The translations under genes and the position numbers were made by a program. A model generated the notes under the pieces. The model had not been told where the DNA came from and searched no databases. It worked only from the letters and a program-made list of their open reading frames with translations. Positions 1,030 to 24,286 of a DNA stretch of 40,322 nucleotides are shown here, one piece after another. This stretch comes from JAWOFN01 sp046497505 [NCBI: bacterium] (GTDB lineage Bacteria > Blakebacterota > Blakebacteria > Blakebacterales), in NCBI GenBank assembly GCA_046497505.1, contig JAWOFN010000030.1:1-40322 (forward strand), given 5' to 3'. Positions within the stretch are counted from its first letter, which is position 1; the number at the start of each line of letters is the position of its first letter.

Positions 1030-3354
1030 ATGAACAGGTCCCCCCTCTTCTGCCTGATGACGGTACTGGTCCTCACCCTGCACGCGGCGGCGGGCTGCGC
1101 GGGGGGCGGGATGAGGCCGCCCCCGTCCGGGGAACGCCCGGAGACCGCAGCCGATGCGGGATTCCCGGCCCTTATCCCCCAGCCGGTGAGGATCCGCCGC
1201 GGGAGGGGCCCCTTCCCCCTGGACGGGAAGACGGTGATCCGGGTCGACCGGGACGCCCCCGGGCTGCTCACCACCGCACGCATCCTGGCGGAACGGCTCC
1301 AGCGGGGGGCCGGGCTGTCGGTGCGGGTAGAGGAGGCGGACCCGGCCCGGCCGGCGGAACGCGGAGAGATCCGGCTCACACTCCGGGGCGCTGATCCCGT
1401 GCTGGGGGAGGAAGGCTACACACTGCGGGTCTCGGAGGAGAGCGTGCTGATCCGGGCCCCCTGGCCCGCCGGGGTCTTCTACGGCACCCAGACCCTCCGG
1501 CAGCTCCTCCCCCCCTCGGTCGAGAACCCCGGTGGCCTCCCCGGACCGGGGGGGTGGACGATCCCCGCGGTGGAGATTTGGGACCGGCCCCGGTACGAGT
1601 GGCGGGGGATGCTGCTCGATTCCTGCCGGCACTTCATGACGGTGGATTTCGTGAAGCGCTACGTCGACCTGCTGGCCTCCCTGAAGATGAACCGCCTCCA
1701 CTGGCACCTCACCGAGGACCAGGGATGGCGGATCGAGATCCGAAGGTATCCCCGGCTCACGGAGGTGGGCGCGTGGCGGGGGGAGGGGGAGGAGCGATAC
1801 GGCGGGTTCTACACACAGGAACAGATCCGGGATGTGGTCCGCTACGCCGCGGAGCGCGGCATCACGGTGGTCCCCGAGATCGAGATGCCGGGACATTCCA
1901 CCGCTGCCCTGGCCGCCTATCCCCATCTCTCCTGCACGGGGGGACCTTTCGAGGTCGGGACCCGCTGGGGAGTGTACGACGACATCTACTGCGCCGGGAA
2001 GGACTCCACCTTCATCTTCCTCCAGGATGTGCTGACCGAGGTGCTGGGACTCTTCCCGTCCCCCTGGATCCATATCGGGGCGGACGAGGCCCCCAAGGTG
2101 CGCTGGCAGGCGCACGAGCTGGACCAGAAGCGGATCCGGGAGGAGGGGCTGGAGGAGGAGCACGGACTCCAGAGCTGGTTCGTGGAGCGGATCGCCCGCT
2201 GGCTGGGAGAGCGGGGCCGCCGCATCATCGGCTGGGACGAGGTCATGGAGGGGGGGACCTCCGCCGGGACCATCGTCCAGTACTGGCGGACCACCGCCGG
2301 GGACAGCACGGTTTTCCGGGCTGCCTCGGAGGGACATCAGGTCATCTCCTCCCCCACATCCCACTGCTATTTCGACTATCCGTACAGCACGACCCCGCTG
2401 GAGCAGGTCTACACCTTCGACCCTGCCCCGGGCTACCTGCGTCCCTCCCAGCGGGAACGGGTCCTGGGCGGGGAGTTCAACATGTGGACCGAACGGGCCC
2501 CGCAGCGGGCCGTCGACCGGCGCATGTTCCCCCGGCTCCTGGCCGGAGCCGAGGTGCTCTGGAGCCCGGAGGAGGGGCGCGACTACAGCCTCTTCCTCCG
2601 GCGCGTGAGCCGGTTCTACCCGCGGCTCCACGCCCTGGGTGTGGACGCCCTGGTCCCGCCCCCGCGCATCGAGGCCGCGGGGGTCCTGGAGGGGGGATCC
2701 GGCGGCTACCGGGTGCGGCTGCTGTCCACCGTGGAGGGAGCGGAGACCCGGTATACGACCGACGGGACGGGACCGGACGGCTCCTCCACTCTCTACAGGG
2801 GGTCCTTCCATCTCGAGGGGGGCGGCACGGTCCGGGCGGTCAGCTATCTCCCGGGATTCTCCGTCTCGGAGCCCGCCTCAGCGACCTTCCACGTGGGGGC
2901 GGCCCCGGCGGCCGATCCCGGAGACCTGGTCCCTGGTCTCTCCTACACGTATCTCGAAGCGCGCTTCCGCCGGACCGCGGACATGGACACGGAGGCCGTC
3001 TCGGGGGAGGGGAGCGTGCCGGTCTTCACCGACTCGCCCCGCAGGGCGGAGGACGGCTACGGTTTCCGGTACGAGGGGTTTATCCGGGTCCCCGAAGACG
3101 GCGCCTGGACCTTCAGCATCCGATCGGACGACGGCAGCGTGCTCCGGATAGGGGGGATCGAGGTGGTGGACAACGACGGGCTGCACGGGGTGGCTGAGGT
3201 GTCGGGTACGATCCTGCTCCGAGCGGGACTGCACCCGGTGGAGGCGCGTTTCTTCGAAGCGGGGGGAGCCGACCTCTTCGAGGTACGGTGGGAGGGTCCG
3301 GGGGTGCCGCGGCAGATCGTCCCCGAGGAGGCTCTCTTCCGGACCCCGCGATAG
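1030..3354 (+). CDS. GH20 beta-N-acetylhexosaminidase lipoprotein with chitobiase-C and PA14 modules
   Basis: The 774-residue product begins with a lipoprotein signal (lipobox AAGC, about residue 23). A GH20 N-terminal domain is followed by the catalytic TIM barrel: WRGMLLDSCRHFM, NRLHWHLTEDQGWRIEI, PEIEMPGH and HIGADEAPK, whose Asp-Glu pair (about residue 350) is the substrate-assisted catalytic pair. After the barrel, about residues 550-620 (TRYTTDGTGPDGSSTLY, then GTVRAVSYLPG) resemble the chitobiase C-terminal beta-sandwich. The last 130 residues (GFRYEGFIRVPEDGAWTFS, SDDGSVLRIGG) form a PA14 carbohydrate-binding module. It should sit on the outside of a membrane and release terminal GlcNAc or GalNAc from glycans or chitin oligomers. 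The start is fixed by a strong GAAGGAG upstream. It lies in the same direction as the GH47 and ApbE-like genes, consistent with a glycan-degradation set. Confidence 0.93.
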   Translation: MNRSPLFCLMTVLVLTLHAAAGCAGGGMRPPPSGERPETAADAGFPALIPQPVRIRRGRGPFPLDGKTVIRVDRDAPGLLTTARILAERLQRGAGLSVRVEEADPARPAERGEIRLTLRGADPVLGEEGYTLRVSEESVLIRAPWPAGVFYGTQTLRQLLPPSVENPGGLPGPGGWTIPAVEIWDRPRYEWRGMLLDSCRHFMTVDFVKRYVDLLASLKMNRLHWHLTEDQGWRIEIRRYPRLTEVGAWRGEGEERYGGFYTQEQIRDVVRYAAERGITVVPEIEMPGHSTAALAAYPHLSCTGGPFEVGTRWGVYDDIYCAGKDSTFIFLQDVLTEVLGLFPSPWIHIGADEAPKVRWQAHELDQKRIREEGLEEEHGLQSWFVERIARWLGERGRRIIGWDEVMEGGTSAGTIVQYWRTTAGDSTVFRAASEGHQVISSPTSHCYFDYPYSTTPLEQVYTFDPAPGYLRPSQRERVLGGEFNMWTERAPQRAVDRRMFPRLLAGAEVLWSPEEGRDYSLFLRRVSRFYPRLHALGVDALVPPPRIEAAGVLEGGSGGYRVRLLSTVEGAETRYTTDGTGPDGSSTLYRGSFHLEGGGTVRAVSYLPGFSVSEPASATFHVGAAPAADPGDLVPGLSYTYLEARFRRTADMDTEAVSGEGSVPVFTDSPRRAEDGYGFRYEGFIRVPEDGAWTFSIRSDDGSVLRIGGIEVVDNDGLHGVAEVSGTILLRAGLHPVEARFFEAGGADLFEVRWEGPGVPRQIVPEEALFRTPR

Positions 3355-8140: not shown

Positions 8141-8204
8141 ATTGCCTCATCTAGAAATCTACTCCAAGTGAGATACGTTGCCTCACGTAGAAATGTAGTC
8201 GAAA
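8141..8204. repeat. Left end of the insertion sequence: two tandem motif copies
   Basis: The outer copy starts TTGCCTCA at 8142 and runs to CTACTC at 8164; the inner copy starts at 8178 and runs to about 8204 (TAGAAATGTAGTCGAAA). The copies are 36 bp apart, in the same orientation, and inverted relative to the two right-end copies. Confidence 0.85.
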
Positions 8205-9439
8205 TCAGGGGCGTCCTCGGGCAGGCTAGCTCCTCTCTTCTTGAGGTTGATTTTCCAGATCTGGTCCTGCAAGCGGTTGATCTTTCTCTTCAGTTCAGCC
8301 GGGTTGAGAGATTCGTACTGCTCTCTCAGGGCAGCCTGATCCTTCGTTGAGAGAAATTCCAGGGTGCGACGATAGGGCGTCCTGGCCTGGTCGTATTTCT
8401 TCTGCACCCGGCTGCCGATCCTGGTCTTCTCGGTTAGCTTCATCACGGGCAGAAAGAAGTTGGTATAGAGCCTCAGGTGACTGTAGAGCTCGTTCAAGAG
8501 TTCGAGTTCCTCATCGGTTTCGTGCCGGCTGTATCCAACCGTCCGGCGCACGACCGAATAGTTCTTCTGCTCCACATAACATCCGTCATTCTTCTTGTAG
8601 GGTCTTCCCCGTGTAAAGGTGATCTTGTTGTCTTCACAGTATTTGACGAGATGATGATTGATGAACTCGCTCCCGTTATCTGAGTCAATTCCCAGCAGCT
8701 GGAACGGTAGCTTCTCCCGGATATCCAACAGAGCCTCGAACACCCAGACCCGAGCTTTGTTCTTCACCGCCTGGGTCTCGGTCCACTGAGTGCAGACGTC
8801 GGTAACGTCCAGGGTATGCATGAAATCTCCCCGTGGATCCCCGCCGTTATGCGCTACCAGGTCGATTTCGACAAAACCGGGTTGGGCCTCATCCCACTCA
8901 CTGAAGGTCTTGATTGGGATCTGATGCTTCAGCAGCGTGCCGGGTTTGGTATTGGAACGGGCCTTGAGCTGGTACTCCCGTTTGACCGGGGCCAGGAGAC
9001 GATCGATCGTCGCAGCGCTGATCTCGACCAGCTTCTTTCTGACTTCCGGCTCGAGCTCGATCTCATCAAACTTCTCCAGCACAGGGATGATCTCCGGCAG
9101 ATAGGGCGCCAGCCGTTTGCCGCAGATGCAGTCACAGACAATCCAGATCTTCTTCAGGGACCCCTGGACTGCCTTGTCATATTTTCGGGGCCTCTTGCGG
9201 CGTTTGAGGGGCTTCATTCGATGGTCTTCCTGCAGCGTGACTCGTTTTCGCCCTCGTCCCACCGTTTTCTTCTTTGTTCCTGCTGTTTCTCTCAAGACGG
9301 TAGCCGCGTAGGATCGATCATAGCCCGTCAGATCGACCAGATCGTCCAGGATCTTGCCTTTCTCCTTCTTCCTGGAAACCACGTACTTCTTGGCCAGTTC
9401 CCTGGTCACAGCTTTTCGCTGAGTCATGGTGAGCGCCAT
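8183..9439 (-). CDS. DDE transposase with integrase catalytic core
   Basis: The 418-residue product has an N-terminal basic helix-turn-helix region (KAVTRELAKKYVVSRKKEKGKILDDL split over residues 5-35, then GYDRSYAATVLR) and a basic linker. The rve-type catalytic core shows its three acidic residues at FVEIDLVAHNGG (first Asp), LLGIDSDNGSEFINHHL (second Asp) and YVEQKNYSVVRRTVGY (Glu, with the K/R seven residues on). All key residues are intact, so the enzyme may be active. The ATG at 9439 is preferred because AGGAGG lies 6 bases upstream; an in-frame TTG lies 8 codons earlier. The stop codon falls inside the inner terminal motif, showing how compact the element is. Confidence 0.9.
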   Translation of the reverse strand: MALTMTQRKAVTRELAKKYVVSRKKEKGKILDDLVDLTGYDRSYAATVLRETAGTKKKTVGRGRKRVTLQEDHRMKPLKRRKRPRKYDKAVQGSLKKIWIVCDCICGKRLAPYLPEIIPVLEKFDEIELEPEVRKKLVEISAATIDRLLAPVKREYQLKARSNTKPGTLLKHQIPIKTFSEWDEAQPGFVEIDLVAHNGGDPRGDFMHTLDVTDVCTQWTETQAVKNKARVWVFEALLDIREKLPFQLLGIDSDNGSEFINHHLVKYCEDNKITFTRGRPYKKNDGCYVEQKNYSVVRRTVGYSRHETDEELELLNELYSHLRLYTNFFLPVMKLTEKTRIGSRVQKKYDQARTPYRRTLEFLSTKDQAALREQYESLNPAELKRKINRLQDQIWKINLKKRGASLPEDAPDFDYIST

Positions 9440-10937: not shown

Positions 10938-11144
10938 ATGGATGTACTGGAAGTCATGGAAGAGGAAGGACCCTTCGCCGCTCTGGATGCCTTCGCCGAT
11001 GTCGCGTGGAAGCTGGGAGACGAGCTGGACGCCTGGCTGAAGGAGAACCGGTCCTCCCTCTCCGCCCTCGACGCGGACCGGATCGTGAGCAGCATCGCCA
11101 GCCTCCGCGGCACGGCGGTGGCAATGGGTCGGGAAGAACCCTAG
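10938..11144 (+). CDS. Small acidic helical protein, unknown function
   Basis: The 68-residue product is acidic at the N-terminus (MDVLEVMEEEGPFAALDAF) and predicted from its spacing of Leu, Ala and charged residues to be largely alpha-helical, with no membrane segment or metal motif. I do not recognise it. It lies between two glycosyltransferase-type genes in the same direction, 46 bases after the first, so it may belong to their operon. The ribosome site is modest (CGGAGCAGAG). It may equally be a remnant of a larger gene, given the decay nearby. Confidence 0.5.
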   Translation: MDVLEVMEEEGPFAALDAFADVAWKLGDELDAWLKENRSSLSALDADRIVSSIASLRGTAVAMGREEP

Positions 11145-11232
11145 AATCTGAAGTCGGTCCTTCCTGCCGTACAGTCCGCCCCTCCCTCCCCGCGGCCGCC
11201 GCCCGCCGGCCCCGCGCTGAGAGGAGAGGTCC

Positions 11233-11682
11233 ATGGCGGACTTCTAGTTCAATGTGGTCCCGACCTTCCCCCTGCTCCCCGAGAACGACCCCGCCTTCAT
11301 GGAGGAGCGTATCCAGGAGGCCTCCGACCAGATTCCGGTGGGGGTCATCATCCCCGCCCTCTTCAGCGACCTGGCCTCCGATGCCATGGCCCGCATCATC
11401 GAGGTCCTCAGGGACGTGGATTTCGTCCAGAGAATCTACATCAGCCTGGACCGGGCGGTCCTCATCTGGAACGACTCCGAGGAGGTCCGCAGCGTCATCC
11501 ATACCATCGAGGAGAACCTCCCCCTGGGGCCCAGGGGGAAGGGGAGGGCGGTCTGGACCGCCCTGGGCTGCGCCCTGGCCTGCCAGGAATGCTCCGTGCT
11601 GGCTTTCCACGACGCGGACATCATCACCTACGACCGTGGCATCATGGAGCAGCTCCGGGCGGCGGCGGACACCTACCGTTGA
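11233..11682 (+). pseudogene. Truncated glucosyl-3-phosphoglycerate-synthase-like gene with in-frame amber codon
   Basis: A strong ribosome site (GAGGAGAGG) precedes ATG at 11233, which reads M-A-D-F then TAG (11245-11247) then FNVVPTFPLL. GpgS-type enzymes of GT family 81 begin with a similar M-A-D-F-(Y/H)-Q motif, so the TAG stands where an aromatic or His codon is expected. Beyond it the family pattern continues: PVGVIIPALFSDL, RIYISLDRA, GPRGKGRAVWTALGCALA and LAFHDADIITYDR, the last holding the metal-binding D-x-D. The protein then ends 14 residues later at LRAAADTYR. Intact family members run 300 or more residues and need the acceptor domain that follows. The segment after YDR looks like the family's C-terminus joined directly, implying an in-frame internal deletion. 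A GTG at 11254 could restart translation after the TAG, but the core is missing either way. Confidence 0.65.
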
Positions 11683-12528: not shown

Positions 12529-13599
12529 CTACTTGAAGCGTACCAGGGAGAGGGTCACGCGGCGGCGCTGTGCCTCTGCGGCACCCCATTGTACCAGGAT
12601 GGGGCTCTGGTAGCGGCCCCGGACCAGCCGTCCCGGTCTGCCGGTATCCCCGTCGGAGACCAGGAAGCTCACGCTCCGCTTCATGCGGAGGAACCGCTCG
12701 GCTGGGAGAGCGAGGAAGCGGGCCAGGAGCCTCTCCAGCACGGAATCACTGATGTGCAGGGCCTCCAGGAGCTGGTTGAATACCTGGACGAAGTCGTATT
12801 TGGCGTAGTTCATCGTCTTCCCCGGGATGGCCAGGGGGTCCCGGATCATGTTGCGTCCCTTGATGGCGGCGTGGCGCAGGGGGTTGCGCAGCACATGGGG
12901 GAGGTCGTGGCGCATGAGCAGCGTCTCGTACTCGTTCACCGTCAGGGCCGCCCTGCTCTCGGCCGGATCCAGTGCCAGGTCGATGCGCCCCTTCTGGATC
13001 CCCTCCCGGGCGATGACCTCGTCGATCCGTTCCAGGAAGCCGTCCCGGGGGTCCGCCAGGTTGATGGAGTCGATGGGGTGGCGGCTCACCGGCACCTCGA
13101 GGGTGCGGCGGTCCACCACCTCCTCCTCCTGATAGCCCAGCACGCGGGTTCGGCGTTCCCGCTGCACCTTGCCGTTCACGCCGTCCAGATCGATGAAGTA
13201 CACCGGCTGACCGGGACGGTTGAGATAGGTCACGCAATTGCGCATCCCCGCGCCCATGAACGTGAGGTGGCTGTCCGCGTTCCGGGGTTCCACCCGCTTC
13301 TGTTCCTCGCTCAGTTCGTGCCTCAGATGCAGCTGGTCGTGGCGATAATCCTGCTCGGGGGGGAAGAGGGTCTGGAACGCTCCGATGAACTGGTCCACCC
13401 GCTCGGCGGAGTGGTCGAGGCGGCTGGAGAGGCTGCGGTCGAGGAATCCCGCTGTGGTATGGAGGGAGCAGTAGAGCCCCCTGGGATAGGCTTCGCAGAA
13501 CCCCTCGTACTCGTTCTCCACGTACCGGGCCACGTCGATGGTCGCGAAGCGGCTGGACGGGACGAGGGAGAGTGAGATCTCTGTCGGCTGGGCAGACAT
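12529..13599 (-). CDS. Enlarged YjbQ-like protein with an unknown C-terminal domain
   Basis: The 356-residue product has an N-terminal half that follows the YjbQ/UPF0047 pattern: EISLSLVPSSRFATIDV, then GLYCSLHTTAGFLDRSLS (the H-T-T-A motif), a downstream H-D pair (DYRHDQLHLR), RNADSHLTFMGAG (the N-A-x-x-H-L motif) and PVYFIDLDGV. The family's three conserved histidine regions are therefore all present, but with longer inserts. The remaining 190 or so residues (from about VNGKVQRERR) have no motif that I recognise; they contain an ERIDEVIAREGIQKGRIDLAL helix-strand region and a basic C-terminus. Normal YjbQ proteins are about 135 residues, so this is a derived or fused form. A candidate promoter lies upstream; the nearest purine-rich ribosome-site-like run (GAGGAGGAG) is 23 bases from the ATG, which is unusually far. 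Confidence 0.6.
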   Translation of the reverse strand: MSAQPTEISLSLVPSSRFATIDVARYVENEYEGFCEAYPRGLYCSLHTTAGFLDRSLSSRLDHSAERVDQFIGAFQTLFPPEQDYRHDQLHLRHELSEEQKRVEPRNADSHLTFMGAGMRNCVTYLNRPGQPVYFIDLDGVNGKVQRERRTRVLGYQEEEVVDRRTLEVPVSRHPIDSINLADPRDGFLERIDEVIAREGIQKGRIDLALDPAESRAALTVNEYETLLMRHDLPHVLRNPLRHAAIKGRNMIRDPLAIPGKTMNYAKYDFVQVFNQLLEALHISDSVLERLLARFLALPAERFLRMKRSVSFLVSDGDTGRPGRLVRGRYQSPILVQWGAAEAQRRRVTLSLVRFK

Positions 13600-13711: not shown

Positions 13712-15262
13712 CTACTGCTCGACGTCCATCGATTCCACGAGTTCCCGCTTCATCTCGTAGAGTTCATCGCTGAGTGAGACGTGGTAGAGGTGGGGGTTGA
13801 TGATCCTGCGTACACCCGGGTCGAGTCGTCCCAGGTCCTCCTCCCGGACCTCACGGATGGTTTCCAGCCCGGGCGGGTCGTACACGGGTCTCCCGGACTC
13901 CAGCACCTCGACCAGGAGGGGCTCGATCCCGCTGATCTCCGCTGCCGAGAGGGTCCTGTGGGTGTCCGTCTCGGTGGGGTGCCGCAGGCGGACGCTCTCC
14001 CATCCCGTGGGGTCCTGCTCCGCGAGGGTGATGAGGTCCGCGCCCGCCTTGCCCCGTTCATCGTAGATGCGCCAGACCGCCTTGTGCCCCGGGTTGGGCA
14101 CCTTGGCGGGGGTCTCGCTCAGTTTGATGGCCGGCATCCACGATCCCTCCTCGCGCATGGCCACCAGCTTGTAGACCCCGTCCAGTGCGGCATCCCCTGC
14201 GCTGGTGATGAGCCGGGTGCCCACCCCGTAGACCAGGCGGTCGATGAGGTCCTCGGCGTCCACCCCGTAACGGGGCGCCTCCTCCCGGATCTGCTGGAGT
14301 ATCTGGGTGAGGACCACCTCGTCCAGCTGGTTGGAGAGGACGATGGAGACCCCCTCGAAGCCCGCTTCCCCCAGCATGCGGGCGGACCGGATGGCCAGAT
14401 AAGCCAGGTCGCCCGAGTCCAGGCGGATCCCCACCGGCTCGTGCCCCGCCTCCCGGAGTTCCTCGAAGACGGTGATAGCGTTGGGCACCCCGCTCTCCAG
14501 GGTGTCGACCGTGTCCACCAGGAGCAGGCAGTCGTCGGGATAGGCCCCGGCATAGCGTCGGAAGGCATCCAGTTCGCTCCCTTCCAGTGCCATGAAGGCC
14601 TGGACCATGCTGTGGGCATGGGTGCCCTTTGGGGGGAGTCCCAGGACCCTGCTGGCTCCGACGTTGGATGTGAAATCGGCCCCCCCGATGAGGGCGGCTC
14701 GTGCTCCGGCGGCAGCTCCCCGGTCGTGCGCCCTGCGCATCCCGAACTCCAGCAGCAGCTTCCGGTCCCCCGCCTGGTGGATCCTGGCGGCCTTGGTGGC
14801 GATGAGGGTCTGGTAGTTCAGGTGGTTCAGGAGGGGGCTCTCCAGGATCTGCGCCTCCGCGAGAGGCCCCTGGACCACCGTGATGGGGACGTTGGGATGT
14901 ACCACCCGCCCCTCGGGGATCGCCTGTACATCCAGGTTCTCGCCGATTCGCACTCCCTTGAGCCAGTCCAGGAAGTCATCTCCGAAGAGCCGATCACCGC
15001 TCTGGCCGGTCTGTCCCCGGAGGTAGGCGATCTCCTCCTGCCCGAAGCGGGCCTCCTCCATCCATTCCAGCAGCCAGGTCAGCCCCGCGTTGATGCAGTA
15101 GCCGGCCATGTGCTCGCCGTAGTCGGGATAGGAGCGGAAGAAGTGGTCGAACTGGGCTCCCTGCTCGTGGATCCCGGCCCGGAAATAGACCTGGGCCATG
15201 GTGAGCTGGTAGAGGTCGGTGAAGAGCGGGCCCTCGGCCTCGGCCCGTCGGGAAGCTCGCAT
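13712..15262 (-). CDS. pncB: Nicotinate phosphoribosyltransferase
   Basis: The 516-residue product opens with [15 protein letters not shown], the standard N-terminus of nicotinate phosphoribosyltransferases. It contains [30 protein letters not shown], split around residues 185-212, then [16 protein letters not shown] with the histidine that is phosphorylated by ATP (about residue 217), and [14 protein letters not shown] and [10 protein letters not shown], the PRPP-binding face. It converts nicotinic acid and PRPP to nicotinate mononucleotide, the entry step of the NAD salvage pathway. It belongs to the longer subgroup of about 480-520 residues. The ATG at 15262 has a good AAAGGAG site 9 bases upstream; the frame is open beyond but without similarity. 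It is divergent from the symporter operon, so the 150 bases between hold both promoters. Confidence 0.95.
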
Positions 15263-15412: not shown

Positions 15413-17230
15413 ATGCGACTCCAGGCCATCGATTGGACCGTCATCTCCCTCTTCTTCGTGGTGAGCCTGATCGTCGGGCTCTGGGTGACCCGCCGTGCCG
15501 GGAGGAACACCGCCGAGTTCTTCCTCTCGGGACGCAACATGCCGTGGTGGCTCCTGGGCATGTCCATGGTGGCCACCACCTTCAGCACCGACACCCCGAA
15601 CCTGGTCACCGACATCGTCCGGCAGAACGGGGTGGCGGGGAACTGGGTCTGGTGGGCCTTCCTCCTCACGGGCATGCTGACCGTCTTCGTCTACGCCAAG
15701 CTGTGGCGGCGTTCCGGCGTGCTCACCGACGTGGAGTTCTACGAGATCCGCTACAGCGGGGCCCCGGCAGCGTTCCTGAGGGGCTTCCGGGCACTCTACC
15801 TGGGCGTGTTCTTCAACGTCGTGATCATGGCCACCGTCACCCTGGCGGCGATCAAGATCGGGGGCGTCCTCCTGAACCTCTCCCCCCTGGAGGTCATCGG
15901 CATCGCCGGCGGGACCACAGTGCTCTTCAGCATGCTGGGAGGATTGACCGGGGTGCTCCTCACCGACTTCCTCCTCTTCATCACGGCCATGGTCGGATCG
16001 GTGGCCGCGGCGGTGGTGGCGGTGGGACATCCGGACGTGGGGGGCCTATCGGGCCTCTTCGCCCACCCGGAGCTGGCGGGACGGCTCTCCATCCTCCCCG
16101 ACTTCGGCGACCCGCGGCAGCTGGTCCCCCTCCTCGTCATCCCTCTGGCGGTGCAGTGGTGGAGCGTGTGGTATCCCGGGGCGGAACCCGGGGGCGGGGG
16201 CTACATCGCCCAGCGGATGCTGTCAGCCCGGGACGAGTCCCATGCCACAGGCGCCACCCTCTTCTTCAACGCCGCCCACTACGCCCTCCGTCCCTGGCCG
16301 TGGATCCTGGTGGCCCTGGCCTCCCTGGTGGTCTTCCCCACTGTGGAGTCGCTCCAGACCGCCTTCCCCGGTGTCTCTGAGGGCATCCTGGGACACGACC
16401 TCGCCTATTCCGCCATGCTCACCTTCCTTCCCCCCGGTCTCCTGGGACTGGTGGTGGGCTCCCTGGCGGCGGCCTATATGTCGACCATCTCCACCCATCT
16501 GAACTGGGGCTCCTCCTATGTGGTGAACGACTTCTGGAAGCGGTTCGTGGAACCGGATGCGGATGAGCGGAGGCTGGTCCTGGTGGGTCGGGTCACCACG
16601 CTCCTCATCATGTTCCTGGCCTGTGCCCTGGCCCTCTGGCTGCGCAGCGCCCTCCAGGCCTTCCAGATCCTGCTCCAGATCGGAGCGGGGACGGGTCTGC
16701 TCTTCATCCTCCGGTGGTTCTGGTGGCGTATCAACGCCTACGCGGAGCTGGCGGCCATGGTCGTCAGCTTCGTGGTGGCCCTCTACGTGGAGCTCCTCCA
16801 CCCCCGTCTCTTCCCCTTCGTGGTCCTGGAGGCCTGGTTCAAGCTGGTGGCGGGGGTGGGCATCACCACGGCCTCCTGGATGGCGGTGGCGCTGCTGACC
16901 CGTCCCGCCGAGACCGAAACGCTGCGCTCCTTCTATCGCCTGGTACGTCCCGGCGGTCCCGGGTGGCGTCGGGTGGTGCAGCGTGCGAAGGAGGAGGGGG
17001 AGCTGCTGGAGGCCTCACCGGGAGACTGGACCGTACCCCAGGGGATCCTCGCCATGCTGGCCGGGACCCTCTCCGTCTACACCGCCCTCTTCGCCATCGG
17101 CAACTGGATCTACGGTGTGGGGTGGATGGCCCTCCTCATGACCGCGGTATCGGTGACCGCGGGATGGTTCGTGGTCGGGGCATGGGGCAGGGTGGCGGGA
17201 GCGGGGGGCGGCGGCGGGGATGCCTCGTGA
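15413..17230 (+). CDS. Sodium:solute symporter family transporter
   Basis: The 605-residue product has about 13-14 hydrophobic helices. It begins [19 protein letters not shown] and shows the SSS-family features [41 protein letters not shown] and [25 protein letters not shown], which include sodium-site residues in helices 1 and 8. It closes with a short Gly-rich tail. Members drive uptake of sugars, sialic acid, amino acids or vitamins with sodium. The next three genes handle a sugar, so a monosaccharide or amino sugar is the likely cargo (inference). GGAAGGA precedes the ATG. The stop overlaps the next start by 4 bases (GTGA). Confidence 0.92.
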
Positions 17231-18042
17231 CCCGGCTGGCCGTGGTCCTGGCCGCGGGGCGGGGGACCCGCATGCGGGAAACGGTGGGCAAGGTGGACCT
17301 CACCCCCCGCCAGAGGGAGGCCGCCGACCTGGGGCTGAAGGGTCTCGTCCCGGTCGCGGGTCGTCCCTTCCTGGACCACGTACTCTCGGCCGTGGCCGAC
17401 GCGGGGGTCGGGGAGGTGTGCCTGGTCACCGGTCCGGGTGACCATCCCGTGAGGATGCGCTACGAGAAGATGCATCCCCGGCGACTGGATTTCCGGTTCG
17501 CCGTACAGGAAGAGGCCCTGGGGACCGCCCACGCTCTTCTCCAGGCGGAAGAGGTGACCGGTGATCATTCGTTCCTCCTGATGAACGCGGACAACTGGTA
17601 TCCTCCCGGAGCGGTGGAGCGGGTGGGCCGGGTCAGGGGGAGTGCCCTGGCCGGGTTCAGACGAGGAGGTCTCGTGCGCCATGGCAACATGCCTTCGGGG
17701 AGAGTACGGTCGTATGCGCTGGTGGATGCGGACGGTGAGGGGCGGGTGAGGAGGGTGGTGGAGAAGCCGGTTCCCGAGGAGGAGACGAGCCTGGGACCGG
17801 GGGCATGGGTGAGCATGACGCTCTGGAGGTTCCGACCGGTGATCTATGAGGCGTGCCGGATGACAGCACCGTCCGAGCGGGGTGAGCGTGAGCTGCCCGA
17901 CGCGGTACAGATCGCCATCGAGCAGCTCGGCGAGACCTTCCTCGTGGTCCCCTGTCCGGACCTGGGCGTCCTCGATCTCTCCCGGCGGGAGGACATCTCC
18001 TCGGCAGCCGGTCATCTGGAGGGGGGTGAGGTGCTGCTGTGA
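17227..18042 (+). CDS. Sugar-phosphate nucleotidyltransferase
   Basis: The 271-residue product starts with LAVVLAAGRGTRM, the nucleotide-binding loop of the NTP-transferase family, has a lysine in LKGLVPVAGRPFLDHVL, and the metal-binding LMNADNWYP in place of the usual N-G-D. VQEEALGTAHAL corresponds to the base-recognition Q-x-x-x-L-G-T-A motif, and VEKP closes the sugar pocket. It should couple a sugar 1-phosphate to NTP. No left-handed beta-helix follows, so it lacks an acetyltransferase half. GTG at 17227 overlaps the transporter stop and its own stop overlaps the kinase start, strong signs of translational coupling. Which sugar and nucleotide are used is not readable, though the adjacent galactokinase-like enzyme suggests a galactose-type sugar. 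Confidence 0.88.
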   Translation: MTRLAVVLAAGRGTRMRETVGKVDLTPRQREAADLGLKGLVPVAGRPFLDHVLSAVADAGVGEVCLVTGPGDHPVRMRYEKMHPRRLDFRFAVQEEALGTAHALLQAEEVTGDHSFLLMNADNWYPPGAVERVGRVRGSALAGFRRGGLVRHGNMPSGRVRSYALVDADGEGRVRRVVEKPVPEEETSLGPGAWVSMTLWRFRPVIYEACRMTAPSERGERELPDAVQIAIEQLGETFLVVPCPDLGVLDLSRREDISSAAGHLEGGEVLL

Positions 18043-19442
18043 GAGGGGTCCCCCTGGAGCGGTACACTTCGGCCCGGCGCCTGCGTTCCGACCTGACGGG
18101 GAGAGGGCTGGGGAGCGAGTCGGCCCGTGCGCTCTCCGAGCTCTTCGCTCAGTGTGCCGCCCGTGCGCGGGACATGGGGATGGCGGGGGGGCGGAGAGTC
18201 CACGGATGGTATGTCCCGGGCCGCATCGAGGTGCTGGGCAAGCATACCGACTATGCCGGGGGGAGCAGCGTGCTGGCCGCCACCGAGCGGGGCTTCTGCT
18301 TCCTGCTGGCCCCCGGGGGGGGGCCCGCACTCTCCATCCTGGACGCGGGCCGGGAGGAGGCGATCTCGTTCCCCGTCGCACCGGACCTCGAACCGGAGAC
18401 CGAGAACTGGGCCAGCTACCCCATGACCGCGGCCCGGCGGCTCGCCCGGGACTTCGGGCCCGACCTGAGGGGAGGACGCCTGGTGTTCGCCAGCAACCTC
18501 CCCCCCGCGTCGGGCATGAGCAGCTCGAGCGCCTTCATCACCGGCACCGTCCTCACCCTGGCGGACCGGAACGGTCTCACCACCGGTGAGCGGTGGCGGC
18601 GGGTGTTCCCCGACCGGGAGACCGTCGCTGACTATCTGGGAGCCGTGGAGAACGGACGCTCCTTCGGACCGCTGGGCGGCGATACCGGGGTCGGAACCCG
18701 GGGCGGGAGCGAGGATCACACGGCCATGATGTGCGCGGTCCCCGGACGTCTGGTGCGCTATGCCTACGCTCCCGTCCGCCTTGAGGACCGGTTGCCCATG
18801 CCGCCGAAGACCGTGTTCGCCGTGGCTTCCAGCGGAGTGCCCGCCCGGAAGACCGGATCTGCCAGGGAACGCTACAACGAGGCCGCGGACCGCATGGAGA
18901 TGCTGCTGGAGGTCTGGAACCGCTCGGTCGAGGTGGCCGCGCCCCACATCGGAACGGTGCTGGAAGGGGGGTCCCGGTCGGAGGAGCGTCTCCAGGAGGC
19001 CATCACCGACCACGCCCCGGCGGGCATGCAGGCGGTTCTCCGCGATCGGCTGGAGCATTTCCGGGCCGAGCAGACGGAGATCCTGCCCACCGCCTCCACG
19101 GCCCTGCGCGAGGGGGACATGGAGACCTTCGGAAGGACCGTGGAGCGCTCCATGGGCCTGGCGGAGGACCTGCTGGGCAACCAGGTGCCCGAGACGGTCT
19201 GCCTCGCCGAGGAGGCCTATCGGCTGGGTGCCGCCGCCGCTTCCGCCTTCGGTGCGGGATACGGCGGCAGCGTCTGGGCACTGGTGGGAACCGGAGAGGC
19301 CGCCTCGTTCCTGCAGCGGTGGCGTTCCTCCTACGCCGACCGCTTTCCGGAGCGGCTGGCCGGAGCCCGCTTCTTCATCACGGGAGCCGGGCCTCCGGCC
19401 CTGCGTCCGCTCATCGAGGATAGAGAGGGAGCCGTCCCATGA
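18039..19442 (+). CDS. GHMP-family sugar kinase, galactokinase-like
   Basis: The 467-residue product has VPGRIEVLGKHTDYAGG (about residues 57-75), the galactokinase signature that contacts the sugar. The GHMP ATP loop is LPPASGMSSSSAF (about 154-167), and the C-terminal motif is GAGYGGS (about 405). Between them the region GGDTGVGTRGGSEDHTAMM replaces the G-G-G-M-D-Q motif of galactokinases, with the Asp of SEDH as the probable catalytic base. This variant, and a length some 80 residues above galactokinase, suggest another galactose-like substrate such as GalNAc or galacturonate. It would make the sugar 1-phosphate for the preceding nucleotidyltransferase. Start GTG overlaps the upstream stop and the ATGA junction couples it to the next gene. 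Confidence 0.88.
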   Translation: MRGVPLERYTSARRLRSDLTGRGLGSESARALSELFAQCAARARDMGMAGGRRVHGWYVPGRIEVLGKHTDYAGGSSVLAATERGFCFLLAPGGGPALSILDAGREEAISFPVAPDLEPETENWASYPMTAARRLARDFGPDLRGGRLVFASNLPPASGMSSSSAFITGTVLTLADRNGLTTGERWRRVFPDRETVADYLGAVENGRSFGPLGGDTGVGTRGGSEDHTAMMCAVPGRLVRYAYAPVRLEDRLPMPPKTVFAVASSGVPARKTGSARERYNEAADRMEMLLEVWNRSVEVAAPHIGTVLEGGSRSEERLQEAITDHAPAGMQAVLRDRLEHFRAEQTEILPTASTALREGDMETFGRTVERSMGLAEDLLGNQVPETVCLAEEAYRLGAAAASAFGAGYGGSVWALVGTGEAASFLQRWRSSYADRFPERLAGARFFITGAGPPALRPLIEDREGAVP

Positions 19443-20785
19443 AGGAAGGACTCGATCGCCGCTCGTTCATCCGTACCACCGCCGCCGCCGGGCTCGGCCT
19501 GGGGCTCGGCGGGACCCTGGCCGGCTGCTCCGATAGGCCGCTCCCGCCGCCGGAGGGTTTCCAGCCCGACCCCATCGATACGGTGCGGATGGGGTTCGTC
19601 GGGGTGGGACACCAGGGGGCGAGCCACGTCCGGAACTTCCTCGGGATCCCGGGTGTTGAGATCCGTGCCGTCTGCGACATCGTCCAGGAGAAGGCGGAAC
19701 GGATCGCGGAACGGGTGGTGGAGGGGGGACAGCCCCGGCCCGTCCTCTATACCGGGGGGCATGAGGACTTCCGGCGGATGTGCGGTGAGGAAGAACTGGA
19801 CCTGGTCTTCAACGCCACCCCCTGGAAGTGGCATCATCCGGTCTGCAGGGAGGCGATGGAGCAGGGGAAGCACGCGGCCACCGAGATCCCCATGGCCATC
19901 AGCCTCGAGGAGTGCTGGGACTTGGTGGAGACCTCCGAGCGGACCCGCAGGCACTGCGTGCCCATGGAGAACTGCTGCTACGACCGCACCGAACTGATGA
20001 TCCTGAACATGGTGCGGCAGGGACTCTTCGGGGACCTCCTCCACGCCGAGTGCGGATATCTCCACGACCTGAGGGAACTCAAACTCAGCGAATTCTACGA
20101 GGAGGAGTGGAGGATCGAGCACTCAGCGCGCCGCAATGCCGACCTCTATCCCACCCACGGTGTGGGGCCCGTCTCCCAGTGGCTCGACATCAACCGGGGC
20201 AACCGCTACGAACACCTCGTGTCCATGGCCAGTCCCGGGATCGGGCTGAACCGCTACGCCGCCGGGGAATACGGGTCCGGGAGCCCCCGGGCTCAGCGGC
20301 GATACGCCCTGGGTGACGTGGTGAACACGCTCATCAAGACCCATCGCGGCGAGAGCATCCTCCTCACCCACGACACCAACTCACCCCGTCCCTACAGCCG
20401 CAGGATCCTGCTCCAGGGCAGCCGGGGACTCATCCGGAAATACCCTGACCAGCGCATCCACATCGAGGGCAGAAGCCCCGCCCACCGGTGGGAGGAGGCG
20501 GAAGCGTACGTCGAGGAGTTCGAGCATCCCCTGTGGTCGGAGATGAGGGAGCGCAGCAGGGGGGCGGGGCACGGCGGCATGGACTACATCGAGGACTGGC
20601 GTCTCATCAAGTGTCTCAGGGAGGGGCTCCCGATGGACATGGACGTATACGACGGGGCGGCATGGAGTTCCCTCATCGAACTGAGCGAGCGTTCCATCGC
20701 CCGGAGGAGCGCCTCGATGGCGTGTCCCGACTTCACCCGGGGTGCTTGGAGGTCCCGACCGCCCCTGGGTATCGTCCATGCGTGA
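19439..20785 (+). CDS. Gfo/Idh/MocA-family protein, GH109-like (NAD-dependent N-acetylgalactosaminidase type)
   Basis: The 448-residue product has a Tat-like N-terminus (RRSFIRTTAAAGLGLGLGGTLAGC) that also contains a lipobox, so export of a folded, cofactor-loaded protein is expected. The Rossmann motif GFVGVGHQGASHV is followed by VFNATPWKWHHPV, MENCCYDRTELMILNMVRQG, AECGYLHDLRELK and NADLYPTHGVGPVSQWLDINRG. These segments track closely with glycoside hydrolase family 109, in which NAD-assisted oxidation at C3 allows cleavage of alpha-N-acetylgalactosaminides; the Tyr of CCYDRTE and the His of YPTHG correspond to family catalytic-site residues. Other oxidoreductase activities are possible within the fold. 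It is the last gene of the coupled operon, starting in an ATGA overlap. Confidence 0.87.
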   Translation: MKEGLDRRSFIRTTAAAGLGLGLGGTLAGCSDRPLPPPEGFQPDPIDTVRMGFVGVGHQGASHVRNFLGIPGVEIRAVCDIVQEKAERIAERVVEGGQPRPVLYTGGHEDFRRMCGEEELDLVFNATPWKWHHPVCREAMEQGKHAATEIPMAISLEECWDLVETSERTRRHCVPMENCCYDRTELMILNMVRQGLFGDLLHAECGYLHDLRELKLSEFYEEEWRIEHSARRNADLYPTHGVGPVSQWLDINRGNRYEHLVSMASPGIGLNRYAAGEYGSGSPRAQRRYALGDVVNTLIKTHRGESILLTHDTNSPRPYSRRILLQGSRGLIRKYPDQRIHIEGRSPAHRWEEAEAYVEEFEHPLWSEMRERSRGAGHGGMDYIEDWRLIKCLREGLPMDMDVYDGAAWSSLIELSERSIARRSASMACPDFTRGAWRSRPPLGIVHA

Positions 20786-20992: not shown

Positions 20993-21190
20993 ATGTCCGT
21001 TGATGCGGCAGGCACACCTGAGATCCTGGAGGACGGTTACGGAAGCGCGAAGTACGATTGGCATAAGCCGGAGTGGGCGGACAGGTCACTGGAAGAGAAA
21101 CTGGAAGCGGACCGGCAGCGCGAGGAGGACCTGATGCGCGGCTCCCGCTACCAGCGGATCCGGCGGCTCGTCCTGGAAGAAGGGGTCTGA
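20993..21190 (+). CDS. Small highly charged protein, unknown function
   Basis: The 65-residue product is hydrophilic. It has an N-terminal half ending in GYGSAKYDWHKPEWADRS, then a charged helix (LEEKLEADRQREEDLM) and a basic RGSRYQRIRRLVLEEG tail. No signal peptide, cysteine pair or known fold is visible. I do not recognise the family, but the clear AAAGGTGG ribosome site, the dedicated promoter and the AT-rich leader argue that it is a real gene rather than chance. A second ATG out of frame lies 4 bases upstream. It faces the convergent ZIP transporter gene with only 18 bases between stops. Confidence 0.65.
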   Translation: MSVDAAGTPEILEDGYGSAKYDWHKPEWADRSLEEKLEADRQREEDLMRGSRYQRIRRLVLEEGV

Positions 21191-21208: not shown

Positions 21209-22030
21209 TCAGCCGAGGGCGACGTCCAGCAGCATCATGACGGCGAACCCCCCCATGGTCCCCAGCGTCGCGATGTCCGTGCTCCCCTCGGACTGCGAAG
21301 CCGGGATGAGTTCCTCAACCACCACGAAGATCATGGCGCCGGCGGCGAAGGCGAGGGCCCAGGGCAGCATCGTCTGCATCTGGGTTACCGCCAGCGCCCC
21401 GACCACCGCGGCGATCGGCTCCACCACCGCACTCAGCTGGCCGTACCAGAAGCAGCGTCCCACCCCCACACCCTCCCTGCGAAGGGGCAGGGCCACCGCC
21501 ACCCCCTCGGGGAAGTTCTGCAGCCCGATCCCGATGGTCAGGGCGACCGCCCCCGCCAGGGTGGCCCCGCCGGGAAGCCCGAGCTGGGCGGCCGCCGCCG
21601 CGAAGGCGACACCGATGGCCAGTCCCTCCGGGATGTTGTGGAGGGTGATGGCAAGCACCAGCAGGGTGGAGCGTCGCCAGGTGGTCGAGATCCCCTCGGC
21701 CGCGTCGATGGGCGTGAAGGGGTGGAGGTGCGGGAGCAGGGCGTCCGCCAGGCGCAGGAAGACCCCTCCCAGGAGGAAGCCTCCCACCGCCGGGAGCCAT
21801 GCGGGGAAACCGAGGAACTCGGCGTACTCGATGGAGGGGAGGAGGAGTGAGAAGAAGCTGGCCGCGATCATCACCCCCGCGGCGAACCCCAGCATGGCGT
21901 TGAGCAGTCCCTGGGACACGGACCGGGTCGTGAAGACCAGGCCGGCGCCCAGGGCGGTCACGGCCCAGGTGAAGCAGCCGCCCAGCAGCGACTGATACAC
22001 GGGGGTGAGATTGCTGAACCATTCGATCAT
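21209..22030 (-). CDS. ZIP-family divalent metal transporter
   Basis: The 273-residue product has eight hydrophobic helices and the two metal-pathway motifs of the family: [15 protein letters not shown] in helix 4 and [17 protein letters not shown] in helix 5. An acidic VVEELIP follows in helix 6. It resembles bacterial ZupT-type importers of zinc, iron and other divalent ions. The loop between helices 3 and 4 is short with only two histidines (PHLHPF), so a regulatory His-rich loop is reduced. The protein sits in the inner membrane. It is a single gene with the ATG at 22030; no regulator is adjacent. Confidence 0.92.
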
Positions 22031-22303: not shown

Positions 22304-22891
22304 TCACTCCCCGTACGTCTTCAGGACCAGTTCCTCCAGGGGACGCTTGGGCACGTGGTGCACCCCCTCCCGGTCCCTCCAGTACCGGATATCCCCTCCC
22401 GGGGCCTGGAGGTCCTCCAGGCGTATCTCCTCGGCCGGTTCTCCCATGCCCAGCGCCAGCAGGATACGCAGATGGCCCGGGATCTCCAGGGCCTCCCGCA
22501 GTCCCGCGACCTCCAGCGATCCGATGATGCAGGTGCCCAGTCCCTTCTCGGCGGCGCCCAGTGCCATGGACCACGCCGCGATCCCGTGATCGCAGCCGAA
22601 GGTGTCCCGGAGCGTGGTGTCTCCCAGGATGATGACCCAGGCGGCCGGACGTTCCCCCTCGGGAGGTCCCTCCCACTCCTCCAGGTAGCCGGCCCAGGCG
22701 GTATGGGGGAAGATGGCGGCGTTGGTGGAGGGATCGGTGCTCAGGATGAACTTCAGCGGCTGGAGGTTCGAGGCGGAGGCGGAGATCCTGGCCAGGTCCG
22801 CGATCTCACGGAGCGCGGCGAGGGTCACCTCCCGGTCCTGGCGGAACCTCCGGGTGGATCGGGTCTTGAGGATGAGTTCACGAAGCGTCAC
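22304..22891 (-). CDS. Nitroreductase-family FMN oxidoreductase
   Basis: The 195-residue product opens TLRELILKTRSTRRFRQD, the FMN-phosphate-binding R-S-x-R-x-F segment. It continues with SASNLQPLKFIL, the S-x-x-N-x-Q-P flavin motif, and AAEKGLGTCIIGSLE with the later G-x-P-A-E. This is the ordinary layout of small dimeric flavoenzymes that use NAD(P)H to reduce nitro groups, quinones or other electron acceptors; the substrate is not predictable. GTG at 22891 is preferred because GAGGAG lies 9 bases before it; a GTG three codons upstream overlaps that site. It is divergent from the cysteine-desulfurase-like gene. Confidence 0.85.
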   Translation of the reverse strand: MTLRELILKTRSTRRFRQDREVTLAALREIADLARISASASNLQPLKFILSTDPSTNAAIFPHTAWAGYLEEWEGPPEGERPAAWVIILGDTTLRDTFGCDHGIAAWSMALGAAEKGLGTCIIGSLEVAGLREALEIPGHLRILLALGMGEPAEEIRLEDLQAPGGDIRYWRDREGVHHVPKRPLEELVLKTYGE

Positions 22892-23047
22892 GCGGGGCAC
22901 TCCTCGGTAGGGTCCAGGGCGGACTGGCGAGCCACATCCTGCGCTCCTACATTACACGTCCCCATCGCGGACGGCCCGTGTTTTCCCGGCGGCATCCGCC
23001 GGGGGGCGGCCGCCGCGGGACCGTACACCCCGGAAGGAGTTCCCATC

Positions 23048-24286
23048 GTGACCGCATCCGAGGACCTCGACGTCCAGGCGATCAGAGACCGATTCCCCTC
23101 CCTTGCCCGGCTGCACGGGGGGCGACCCGTCGCCTACTTCGACGGGCCCGGCGGCACCCAGGTCCCGCTGGAGGTGGTGGAGGCGGTGACCGACTACCTC
23201 GTCCACCACAACGCCAACGCCCACTGGCCCTTCCCCACGAGCCGGGAGACCGATGAGGTCGTAGCGTCGGGGCGGGGGGCTGTGGCCGACCTCCTCGGTG
23301 CCGCCTCCGAGGAGGTGGTCTTCGGGCCGAACATGACGACCCTCGCCTTCCATCTGGCACGGGCATTGGGGCGCACCATGGACCCCGGGGACGAGATCCT
23401 CGTCACCGAACTCGACCACCACGCCAACGTGGATCCCTGGAGGGACCTGGCGGTAGAGCGGGGGGTGGAGGTCCGGGCCGTACGGATGGACCCGGAAGGA
23501 TGCACCCTGGACTGGGAGGACCTGGAGGCGAAGCTGGGTCCGAAGACCCGGCTGCTGGCCATCGGGGCGGCGAGCAACGCGGTGGGTACCGTCACCGACG
23601 TCGCGAGGGCGGCGGGGATGGCCCACACAGCCGGCGCCCTGGTCTTCGTGGACGCGGTCCACTACACCCCCCACCGGAAGGTGGAGGTGGAGGACCTGGG
23701 ATGCGACTTCCTGGCCTGTTCCCCCTACAAGTTCTACGGGCCCCACCTGGGGGTGCTCTGGGGACGGAGGGAACGGTTCGAGGAGCTCCATGTCTCGAAG
23801 CTGCAGCCGGCCCCGGACAGAGTTCCCGAACGCCTGGAGACCGGCACCGCCCTTCATGAGGGGATCGCAGGGGCGGCGGCGACCGTGGATTTCATCGCCT
23901 CACTGGGGCGGGGCGAGAACAGGGTCGACCGCCTGGAGGACGCATACGGCAGGCTCCACACCCGGGGAGAACGGCTCATCGTGCGGCTCGTAGGCGGCCT
24001 GGAGCAGATCGACGGGGTCACTGTCCACGGTCCCGGGACCGATCACCCGAGGACCCCCACCGCGGCCTTCGCCGTGGGAGCGTGGCCTTCGGAGGAGGTG
24101 AGCGCCCGTCTGGCGGAGGGCGGGGTGTTCACCACCTGCGGTGACTTCTATGCCAGCACGCTGGTGGAGAGGCTGGGCCGCGCGGACAGCGGACTGGTCC
24201 GGGCGGGCTGTGCCTGCTACACGACCGAGGAAGAGGTGGACCGCCTCCTCGAGGGGGTGGCGGACCTGGCGCGTCAGACGGTTTGA
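23048..24286 (+). CDS. Cysteine desulfurase-like class V aminotransferase
   Basis: The 412-residue product has the class V PLP fold: YFDGPGGTQVPLEVVEAV at the N-terminus, TELDHHANVDPW, a cofactor Asp in LVFVDAVHYTPH, and the PLP lysine in ACSPYKFYGPHLGVLWG. GTALHEGIAGAAATVDFI follows, then GVFTTCGDFYA, where a Cys stands near the position of the catalytic cysteine of SufS/IscS-type enzymes. The overall arrangement fits the 'cysteine desulfurase family' subgroup that occurs singly, apart from suf or isc genes. It may mobilise sulfur or cleave another amino-acid substrate. The GTG at 23048 has GGAAGGAG upstream. The last 13 bases overlap the convergent tautomerase gene. Confidence 0.85.
   Translation: MTASEDLDVQAIRDRFPSLARLHGGRPVAYFDGPGGTQVPLEVVEAVTDYLVHHNANAHWPFPTSRETDEVVASGRGAVADLLGAASEEVVFGPNMTTLAFHLARALGRTMDPGDEILVTELDHHANVDPWRDLAVERGVEVRAVRMDPEGCTLDWEDLEAKLGPKTRLLAIGAASNAVGTVTDVARAAGMAHTAGALVFVDAVHYTPHRKVEVEDLGCDFLACSPYKFYGPHLGVLWGRRERFEELHVSKLQPAPDRVPERLETGTALHEGIAGAAATVDFIASLGRGENRVDRLEDAYGRLHTRGERLIVRLVGGLEQIDGVTVHGPGTDHPRTPTAAFAVGAWPSEEVSARLAEGGVFTTCGDFYASTLVERLGRADSGLVRAGCACYTTEEEVDRLLEGVADLARQTV

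Follow-up and report, generated by a model that had tools for sequence, protein, structure and literature searches.

In Bacteroides thetaiotaomicron, the polysaccharide utilization locus BT4240-BT4243 brings together an N-acetylgalactosamine (GalNAc) kinase, a GH2 enzyme, a putative sugar transporter and a GH109 alpha-N-acetylgalactosaminidase in one operon; its kinase is reported to phosphorylate C1, as shown with N-acetylglucosamine (GlcNAc) and inferred for GalNAc (PMC11992087). The N-acetylhexosamine 1-kinase of the Bifidobacterium lacto-N-biose/galacto-N-biose pathway, BL1642, likewise acts at C1 of GalNAc and GlcNAc (cited in PMC11992087). A GHMP anomeric kinase and a nucleotidyltransferase have also been described as a single unit, in the fucokinase/GDP-fucose pyrophosphorylase FKP and in a zebrafish glucuronokinase joined to a putative pyrophosphorylase (PMC3938481, PMC11982464). 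Here we describe a bacterial locus that resembles both arrangements. It lies in a stretch of 40,322 nucleotides from JAWOFN01 sp046497505 (Blakebacterota; contig JAWOFN010000030.1), hereafter the window, and consists of four genes that encode an SSF (SGLT-like) Na+/solute symporter, a sugar-1-phosphate nucleotidyltransferase, a GHMP sugar kinase and a GH109 NAD-dependent glycosidase.

We read these genes, with slightly less than even confidence, as a self-contained salvage operon that takes an N-acetylhexosamine (HexNAc), probably GalNAc, to a nucleoside diphosphate (NDP) sugar. That a sugar-1-kinase and a nucleotidyltransferase here produce an NDP-sugar is, in our judgement, highly probable; the choice of HexNAc as that sugar, with GalNAc as the first candidate, is tentative and falls a little short of an even call. 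In the proposed scheme, the GH109 enzyme, a predicted lipoprotein exported by twin-arginine translocation (Tat), would use an NAD-dependent redox mechanism to free a HexNAc, GalNAc being the most likely, from a glycoside outside the cell. The symporter would bring the free sugar in with Na+, the kinase would phosphorylate it at C1, and the nucleotidyltransferase would convert the 1-phosphate to an NDP-sugar, with uridine diphosphate (UDP) suggested by family resemblance. The product could then be used to build cell-envelope glycans or, once 4-epimerised, pass into the metabolism of amino sugars. An earlier note on this DNA had proposed the same logic of release, uptake, phosphorylation and activation; this logic, the protein families and the order of the genes are all supported.

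Architecture of the four-gene operon

All four genes are on the forward strand. The symporter gene (15413-17230, 605 amino acids) is followed by those for the nucleotidyltransferase (17227-18042, 271 amino acids, GTG start), the kinase (18039-19442, 467 amino acids, GTG start) and the glycosidase (19439-20785, 448 amino acids), and each junction is a four-base overlap: GTGA at 17227-17230, GTGA at 18039-18042 and ATGA at 19439-19442. Sequence and Pfam thus bear out the four open reading frames (ORFs), their families and the three overlaps given in the earlier note. The nucleotidyltransferase start is the GTG at 17227; a mechanical ORF list extends the frame back to 16714. All four genes have a third-position GC of 0.81-0.90, and the sequence GGAAGGA sits upstream of the symporter gene. 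Both flanks are on the opposite (-) strand, with a nicotinate phosphoribosyltransferase gene at 13712-15262 on the 5' side and an ORF at 21209-22030 on the 3' side. Between the glycosidase gene and 21209, the gene caller placed a single weak ORF (20993-21190, +, 65 amino acids, score 19). With such flanks, the four genes most likely form a closed unit, and their overlaps and isolated position favour the salvage reading. None of the four proteins reached an NCBIfam equivalog cut-off.

The symporter matched SSF (PF00474, 88.8 bits). Its best solved relatives were vSGLT (2xq2, E 1.4e-29) and then human SGLT1 and SGLT2; that is, its closest solved relative is a sugar symporter.

The glycosidase carries a GH109 C-terminal domain (Glyco_hydro_109_C, PF21252, 208.6 bits, cut-off 27) behind a Gfo/Idh/MocA NAD-binding domain (GFO_IDH_MocA, PF01408, 51 bits, cut-off 24), and residues ~39-446 aligned with the solved structures 6t2b (E 7.5e-104) and 2ixa (E 3.2e-97). 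In the Akkermansia enzyme AmGH109A, the catalytic residues are reported to be Tyr226, His259 and His404 (GGHGG loop) (PMC10755693). These align with Y207, H240 and H378 of the window protein, a correspondence read by hand from the alignment, after which the letters were checked. Because the three residues are conserved, GalNAc is favoured as the sugar. At the N-terminus, a twin-arginine signal (TAT_signal_seq, 20.6 bits, cut-off 16.7) is followed by a lipobox, LAGC, at residues 27-30, so the enzyme should be a Tat-exported lipoprotein that works outside the cytoplasm. We also considered the GH188 sulfoquinovosidases, which share a related NAD-dependent redox glycosidase chemistry but are described as having Glu163 in place of GH109 Tyr226 and a sulfonate-binding loop of their own (PMC10755693). 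The window protein keeps the Tyr and aligned with GH109 structures over most of its length, so we rejected the GH188 assignment.

The kinase, the nucleotidyltransferase and the sugar

The kinase matched three Pfam domains: GHMP_N (32.4 bits), GalKase_gal_bdg (30.8 bits) and GHMP_C (29.5 bits). An AlphaFold model computed from a 17-sequence alignment (the window protein and 16 relatives) had a mean predicted local distance difference test (pLDDT) score of 89.5, and its top matches by Foldseek and VIA-align were galactokinases and the human GalNAc kinase, with Z scores of 42.6 for 2dei and 38.4 for 2a2c. A family-profile search returned the same relatives (2a2c/2a2d, E 4.4e-31). R62, D71 and D226 are kept in the window kinase, and R62 and D226 align with an Arg and an Asp of the solved kinases that we take to be catalytic. 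In fold and motifs, then, this is a GHMP kinase. Relatives of the kinase were found neither in viral contigs nor in phage records, and plasmid records gave eight remote matches, none of which covered 80% of the query. A literature search on AbGHMP (9ulx) found nothing.

The kinase departs from the galactokinases in score and in sequence. It missed their equivalog cut-offs by a wide margin (PRK03817, 69.5 bits against 443; PRK05322, 65.8 against 385; TIGR00131, 56.3 against 226.65), and it lacks the Glu that precedes His-x-Asp in the galactose signature. In the six solved kinases whose alignments we compared (human GALK1, the human GalNAc kinase, and the Lactococcus, Bifidobacterium and two Pyrococcus galactokinases), this signature reads GEH.DY, whereas the clade of the window protein has PGR-[IV]-E-[VI]-LG-K-HTDY, with a Lys (Lys68 in the window) in place of the Glu. 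Lys68 is invariant in the window and in 16/16 relatives that cover the site; the 17th, L038, is cut by a contig end. The scores and Lys68 led us to reject a plain Leloir galactokinase.

Lys68 also opens the possibility, which we consider unlikely, that the kinase and nucleotidyltransferase salvage a sugar whose C6 is acidic (galacturonate, glucuronate, N-acetylgalactosaminuronate or one with a 6-sulfo group), the Lys pairing with the charge and the product being an NDP-sugar acid. At this position the Glu of galactokinases presumably touches the C6 hydroxyl of the sugar, and the plant galacturonate kinase presumably differs from them; since the Glu contact is our assumption, Lys68 is a hypothetical pointer to an acidic C6. 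Consistent with such a pathway, plant uronate 1-kinases are described as acting ahead of a UDP-sugar pyrophosphorylase, and the zebrafish glucuronokinase as being fused to its putative pyrophosphorylase (PMC3938481). On the other hand, the GH109 catalytic residues point to GalNAc, genes for uronates or sulfosugars are missing from the operon, Glu64, which co-varies with Lys68, could be its partner in place of a substrate, and the site is not constant among other galactokinase-like proteins (Asn in a paralogue from L005). Should the Lys indeed select an acidic sugar, such as N-acetylgalactosaminuronate or a uronate, these proteins would be a new clade of anomeric kinases which, with an obligate nucleotidyltransferase partner, would form a bacterial kinase-pyrophosphorylase salvage route to UDP-sugar acids, joined in the window by a Na+ symporter and an NAD-dependent glycosidase; to this outcome we give only a minor chance.

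The nucleotidyltransferase, which we return to in the context of the preferred GalNAc salvage pathway, matched NTP_transferase (PF00483, 67.7 bits). The closest named model was that of the haloarchaeal UTP-glucose-1-phosphate uridylyltransferase AglF, at 107.6 bits against a cut-off of 400; the resemblance suggests UTP as the nucleotide, though from a score far short of that cut-off. All 24 models listed scored under their cut-offs, and no equivalog fixed the sugar and nucleotide. The structural model (pLDDT 93.7) had GalU and RmlA as its top Foldseek matches, and its fold resembles those of uridylyl- and thymidylyltransferases. G11, G13, R15, M16, K38, Q94, D122 and K180 are invariant across 14 sequences (the window and 13 relatives). 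The protein thus combines the NTP_transferase fold with the GxGxRM, Lys, Asp and EKP motifs of the GalU/RmlA/AglF type. Models of MurU, from the AmgK/MurU type of N-acetylmuramic acid recycling, gave only 36.1 and 21.9 bits. In plasmid records, the nucleotidyltransferase had matches in 131, all below 60% identity and most numerous in Streptomyces plasmids (49); the ten matches listed were all haloarchaeal, with 7/10 annotated as AglF.

The kinase-nucleotidyltransferase pair in other genomes

An initial genome scan yielded two loci: L001, at 44% identity, and L002, which matched only remotely. For comparison we used 64 genomes of the phylum to which the L001 genome belongs, with thresholds of E <=1e-15 for the kinase and E <=1e-25 for the nucleotidyltransferase. 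The window itself is probably from outside that phylum, as its carboxyltransferase matched 1 of the 64 genomes at E <=1e-100, with 51% identity. The kinase was present in 17 of the 64 genomes and the nucleotidyltransferase in 13, all of which also had the kinase. The two genes are adjacent in 12 of these 13 genomes; in the remaining one, G025, they are on separate short contigs. Eleven of the 12 adjacent pairs overlap by four bases and the twelfth has a 9-base gap, with starts taken from the gene caller. The nucleotidyltransferase-kinase pair is therefore a real recurring module, and because its overlap is conserved in 11/12 pairs of other genomes, this junction goes beyond chance. The symporter-nucleotidyltransferase and kinase-GH109 overlaps found no comparative support. 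The 14 genomes of a second phylum, reached through L002, gave no match, a result that proves nothing alone.

We also looked for the other two families, at >=40% identity for SSF relatives (20 of 30-35 candidates were scored in two genomes) and at E <=1e-40 for GH109 relatives (up to 26 candidates were scored per genome, often out of more). SSF relatives occur in at least 5 of the 64 genomes and GH109 relatives in at least 14. We inspected the surroundings of 13 of the 42 matches listed (6/25 SSF and 7/17 GH109, with two stretches shorter than 4 kb), and none had genes of more than one of the four families next to each other. The four-gene set thus did not turn up again in the 64 genomes searched and is seen in this window alone. 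The search for the four-family neighbourhood that the earlier note had called for thus recovered the kinase-nucleotidyltransferase pair and nothing larger.

Several kinds of gene recur around the pair. A gene for an ABC-2 type exporter (cluster C4) is found close to it in 8/12 pair loci and a small protein without a Pfam match (C3) in 10/12, each annotated from one member. A GlcNAc 2-epimerase-like gene, assigned by Pfam and the closest solved relatives (6f04, 2gz6) of one member, follows the module in 4/12 pairs. This epimerase is present in 10/13 genomes with the pair and 8/51 without it (p 5e-5, at a ~50% identity cut set post hoc and uncorrected for kinship). It also occurs in runs, as in G010:C250 (seven listed there, ten in the genome) and on contigs of G008 and G009. 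In one of the 12 pair loci, L028, a GH20-like gene (46%) is found at 1131-2567, ~6 kb from the pair. The window itself encodes a GH20 beta-hexosaminidase with PA14 and CHB_HEX_C_1 domains (1030-3354, +), 12 kb from the operon, which we counted in favour of the salvage reading. In L032, an ORF at 11106-11525 has a GGDEF-like start and an epimerase-like end, and looks like a deletion or an assembly join of neighbours.

How, then, does GalNAc salvage fare? The galactose-type amino sugar put forward in the earlier note draws support from the GH109 catalytic residues and, circumstantially, from the HexNAc-type neighbours elsewhere (GlcNAc 2-epimerase-like and GH20-like); Lys68 of the kinase and the symporter speak against it. 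Weighing against it, first, Lys68 replaces the Glu that the solved GalNAc kinase shares with the galactokinases. Second, none of the six residues that we take to be the galactose contacts of vSGLT (Q69, E88, S91, N260, K294 and Q428) is identical in the symporter, read by hand at low identity, so that the substrate or its pose probably differs, weak as the reading is at this identity. Third, the 17 kinase loci gave no SSF or full-length GH109 match, only one partial Gfo/Idh-type match (32%, in L023); the link of the symporter and glycosidase to the pair therefore comes from the window itself, and GH109 may have joined the pair late and locally. Co-occurrence of kinase and GH109 is weak (7/17 against 7/47 genomes, p 0.039, uncorrected for kinship). 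Four genomes (G001, G026, G027 and G028) have the kinase without the nucleotidyltransferase, beside HPr kinase-like and aspartokinase-like clusters in 4/4 loci and a phosphofructokinase-like cluster in 3/4 (Pfam on one member each). In 12/12 pair loci, a gene for a small GGDEF-domain protein directly follows the kinase (Pfam was run on one member, and the L032 copy is within the chimeric ORF); it is absent from the window operon. Finally, a block with the ABC-2 exporter, further proteins and the GlcNAc 2-epimerase occurs without the pair in L126-L129 (G042, G049, G048 and G047), so the linkage of epimerase and pair may be inherited synteny.

Some of these observations suit a divergent galactokinase acting on a neutral sugar, galactose or L-arabinose. 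The pair would then be a GalT-free route to a UDP-sugar and GH109 an incidental partner: the best NCBIfam models and the top structural matches of the kinase are galactokinases, and the pair recurs without GH109. We nevertheless regard this as quite improbable, given scores far under the galactokinase cut-offs (69.5 bits against 443), the Glu to Lys change in the pocket and the absence of the vSGLT galactose contacts.

In a further explanation, envelope glycans are built from internally recycled sugar, with GH109 trimming the cell's own glycans and the symporter recovering the products. The exporter near 8/12 pairs fits this, as does an output that is an activated sugar and no glycolytic intermediate. 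However, the exporter block also occurs without the pair and the operon holds no glycosyltransferase, and we regard this explanation, too, as quite improbable. Compared with the pair loci, L126-L129 look as though they had acquired or shed the pair and its GGDEF gene as one cassette.

Elsewhere in the window, an integrase-core (rve) protein at 8183-9409 (-) marks a possible insertion element. A nitroreductase ORF at 22304-22900 (-) overlaps a cysteine desulfurase-like ORF at 22355-24286 (+) in the long first part of the latter, where the family match begins only at residue 238; the true start of the desulfurase-like ORF is therefore probably near 23048. Two sizeable ORFs had no family match, 12529-13599 (-) in Pfam and NCBIfam and 36654-39911 (-) in NCBIfam only.

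Comparison with known systems

Human GALK2 (2a2c, 2a2d), which has a salvage role towards UDP-GalNAc, shares the GHMP galactokinase fold with the window kinase (Z 38.4) at ~21% identity, and has Glu where the window protein has Lys. The Bifidobacterium route continues from the 1-phosphate by GalT-type transfer. Its kinase BL1642 is not a GHMP kinase: the APH-motif protein BT4240 is reported to be 39% identical to it (PMC11992087). The B. thetaiotaomicron locus likewise has an APH-fold GalNAc kinase and a transporter of the major facilitator superfamily, where the window has a GHMP kinase, an SSF transporter and, in the operon, a nucleotidyltransferase; the main text of that paper contains neither "UDP" nor "pyrophosphorylase" (PMC11992087). 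FKP, whose kinase part (9iip) matched the window kinase model with a Z score of 25.4, and the zebrafish protein are fusions that serve fucose or glucuronate, whereas the window has two genes with a four-base overlap and a kinase of another clade.

The earlier note had held that a kinase and nucleotidyltransferase route feeding NDP-GalNAc directly would be unusual for host-glycan scavenging. This was overstated, because B. thetaiotaomicron already offers a published 1-phosphate route for GalNAc, with its kinase in one operon with GH109 and a putative transporter (PMC11992087). A literature search at the level of titles and abstract openings found no description of the operon's combination of genes, though this does not prove its absence. 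If the GalNAc reading is true, scavenged GalNAc would go directly to an NDP-sugar, bypassing the 6-phosphate and deacetylation, and a GHMP kinase would replace the APH-type kinase of Bifidobacterium and Bacteroides. If instead Lys68 does read an acidic sugar, the pair would be a bacterial counterpart of plant and animal uronate salvage. Under either reading, the pair makes a small unit of two proteins, open to testing, that might be put to use in the enzymatic synthesis of activated sugars. What is new here is the GHMP kinase with a dedicated nucleotidyltransferase; the grouping of a GalNAc kinase with GH109 and a transporter was already known. Set beside these systems, the operon is a good and testable variant rather than a new kind of system.

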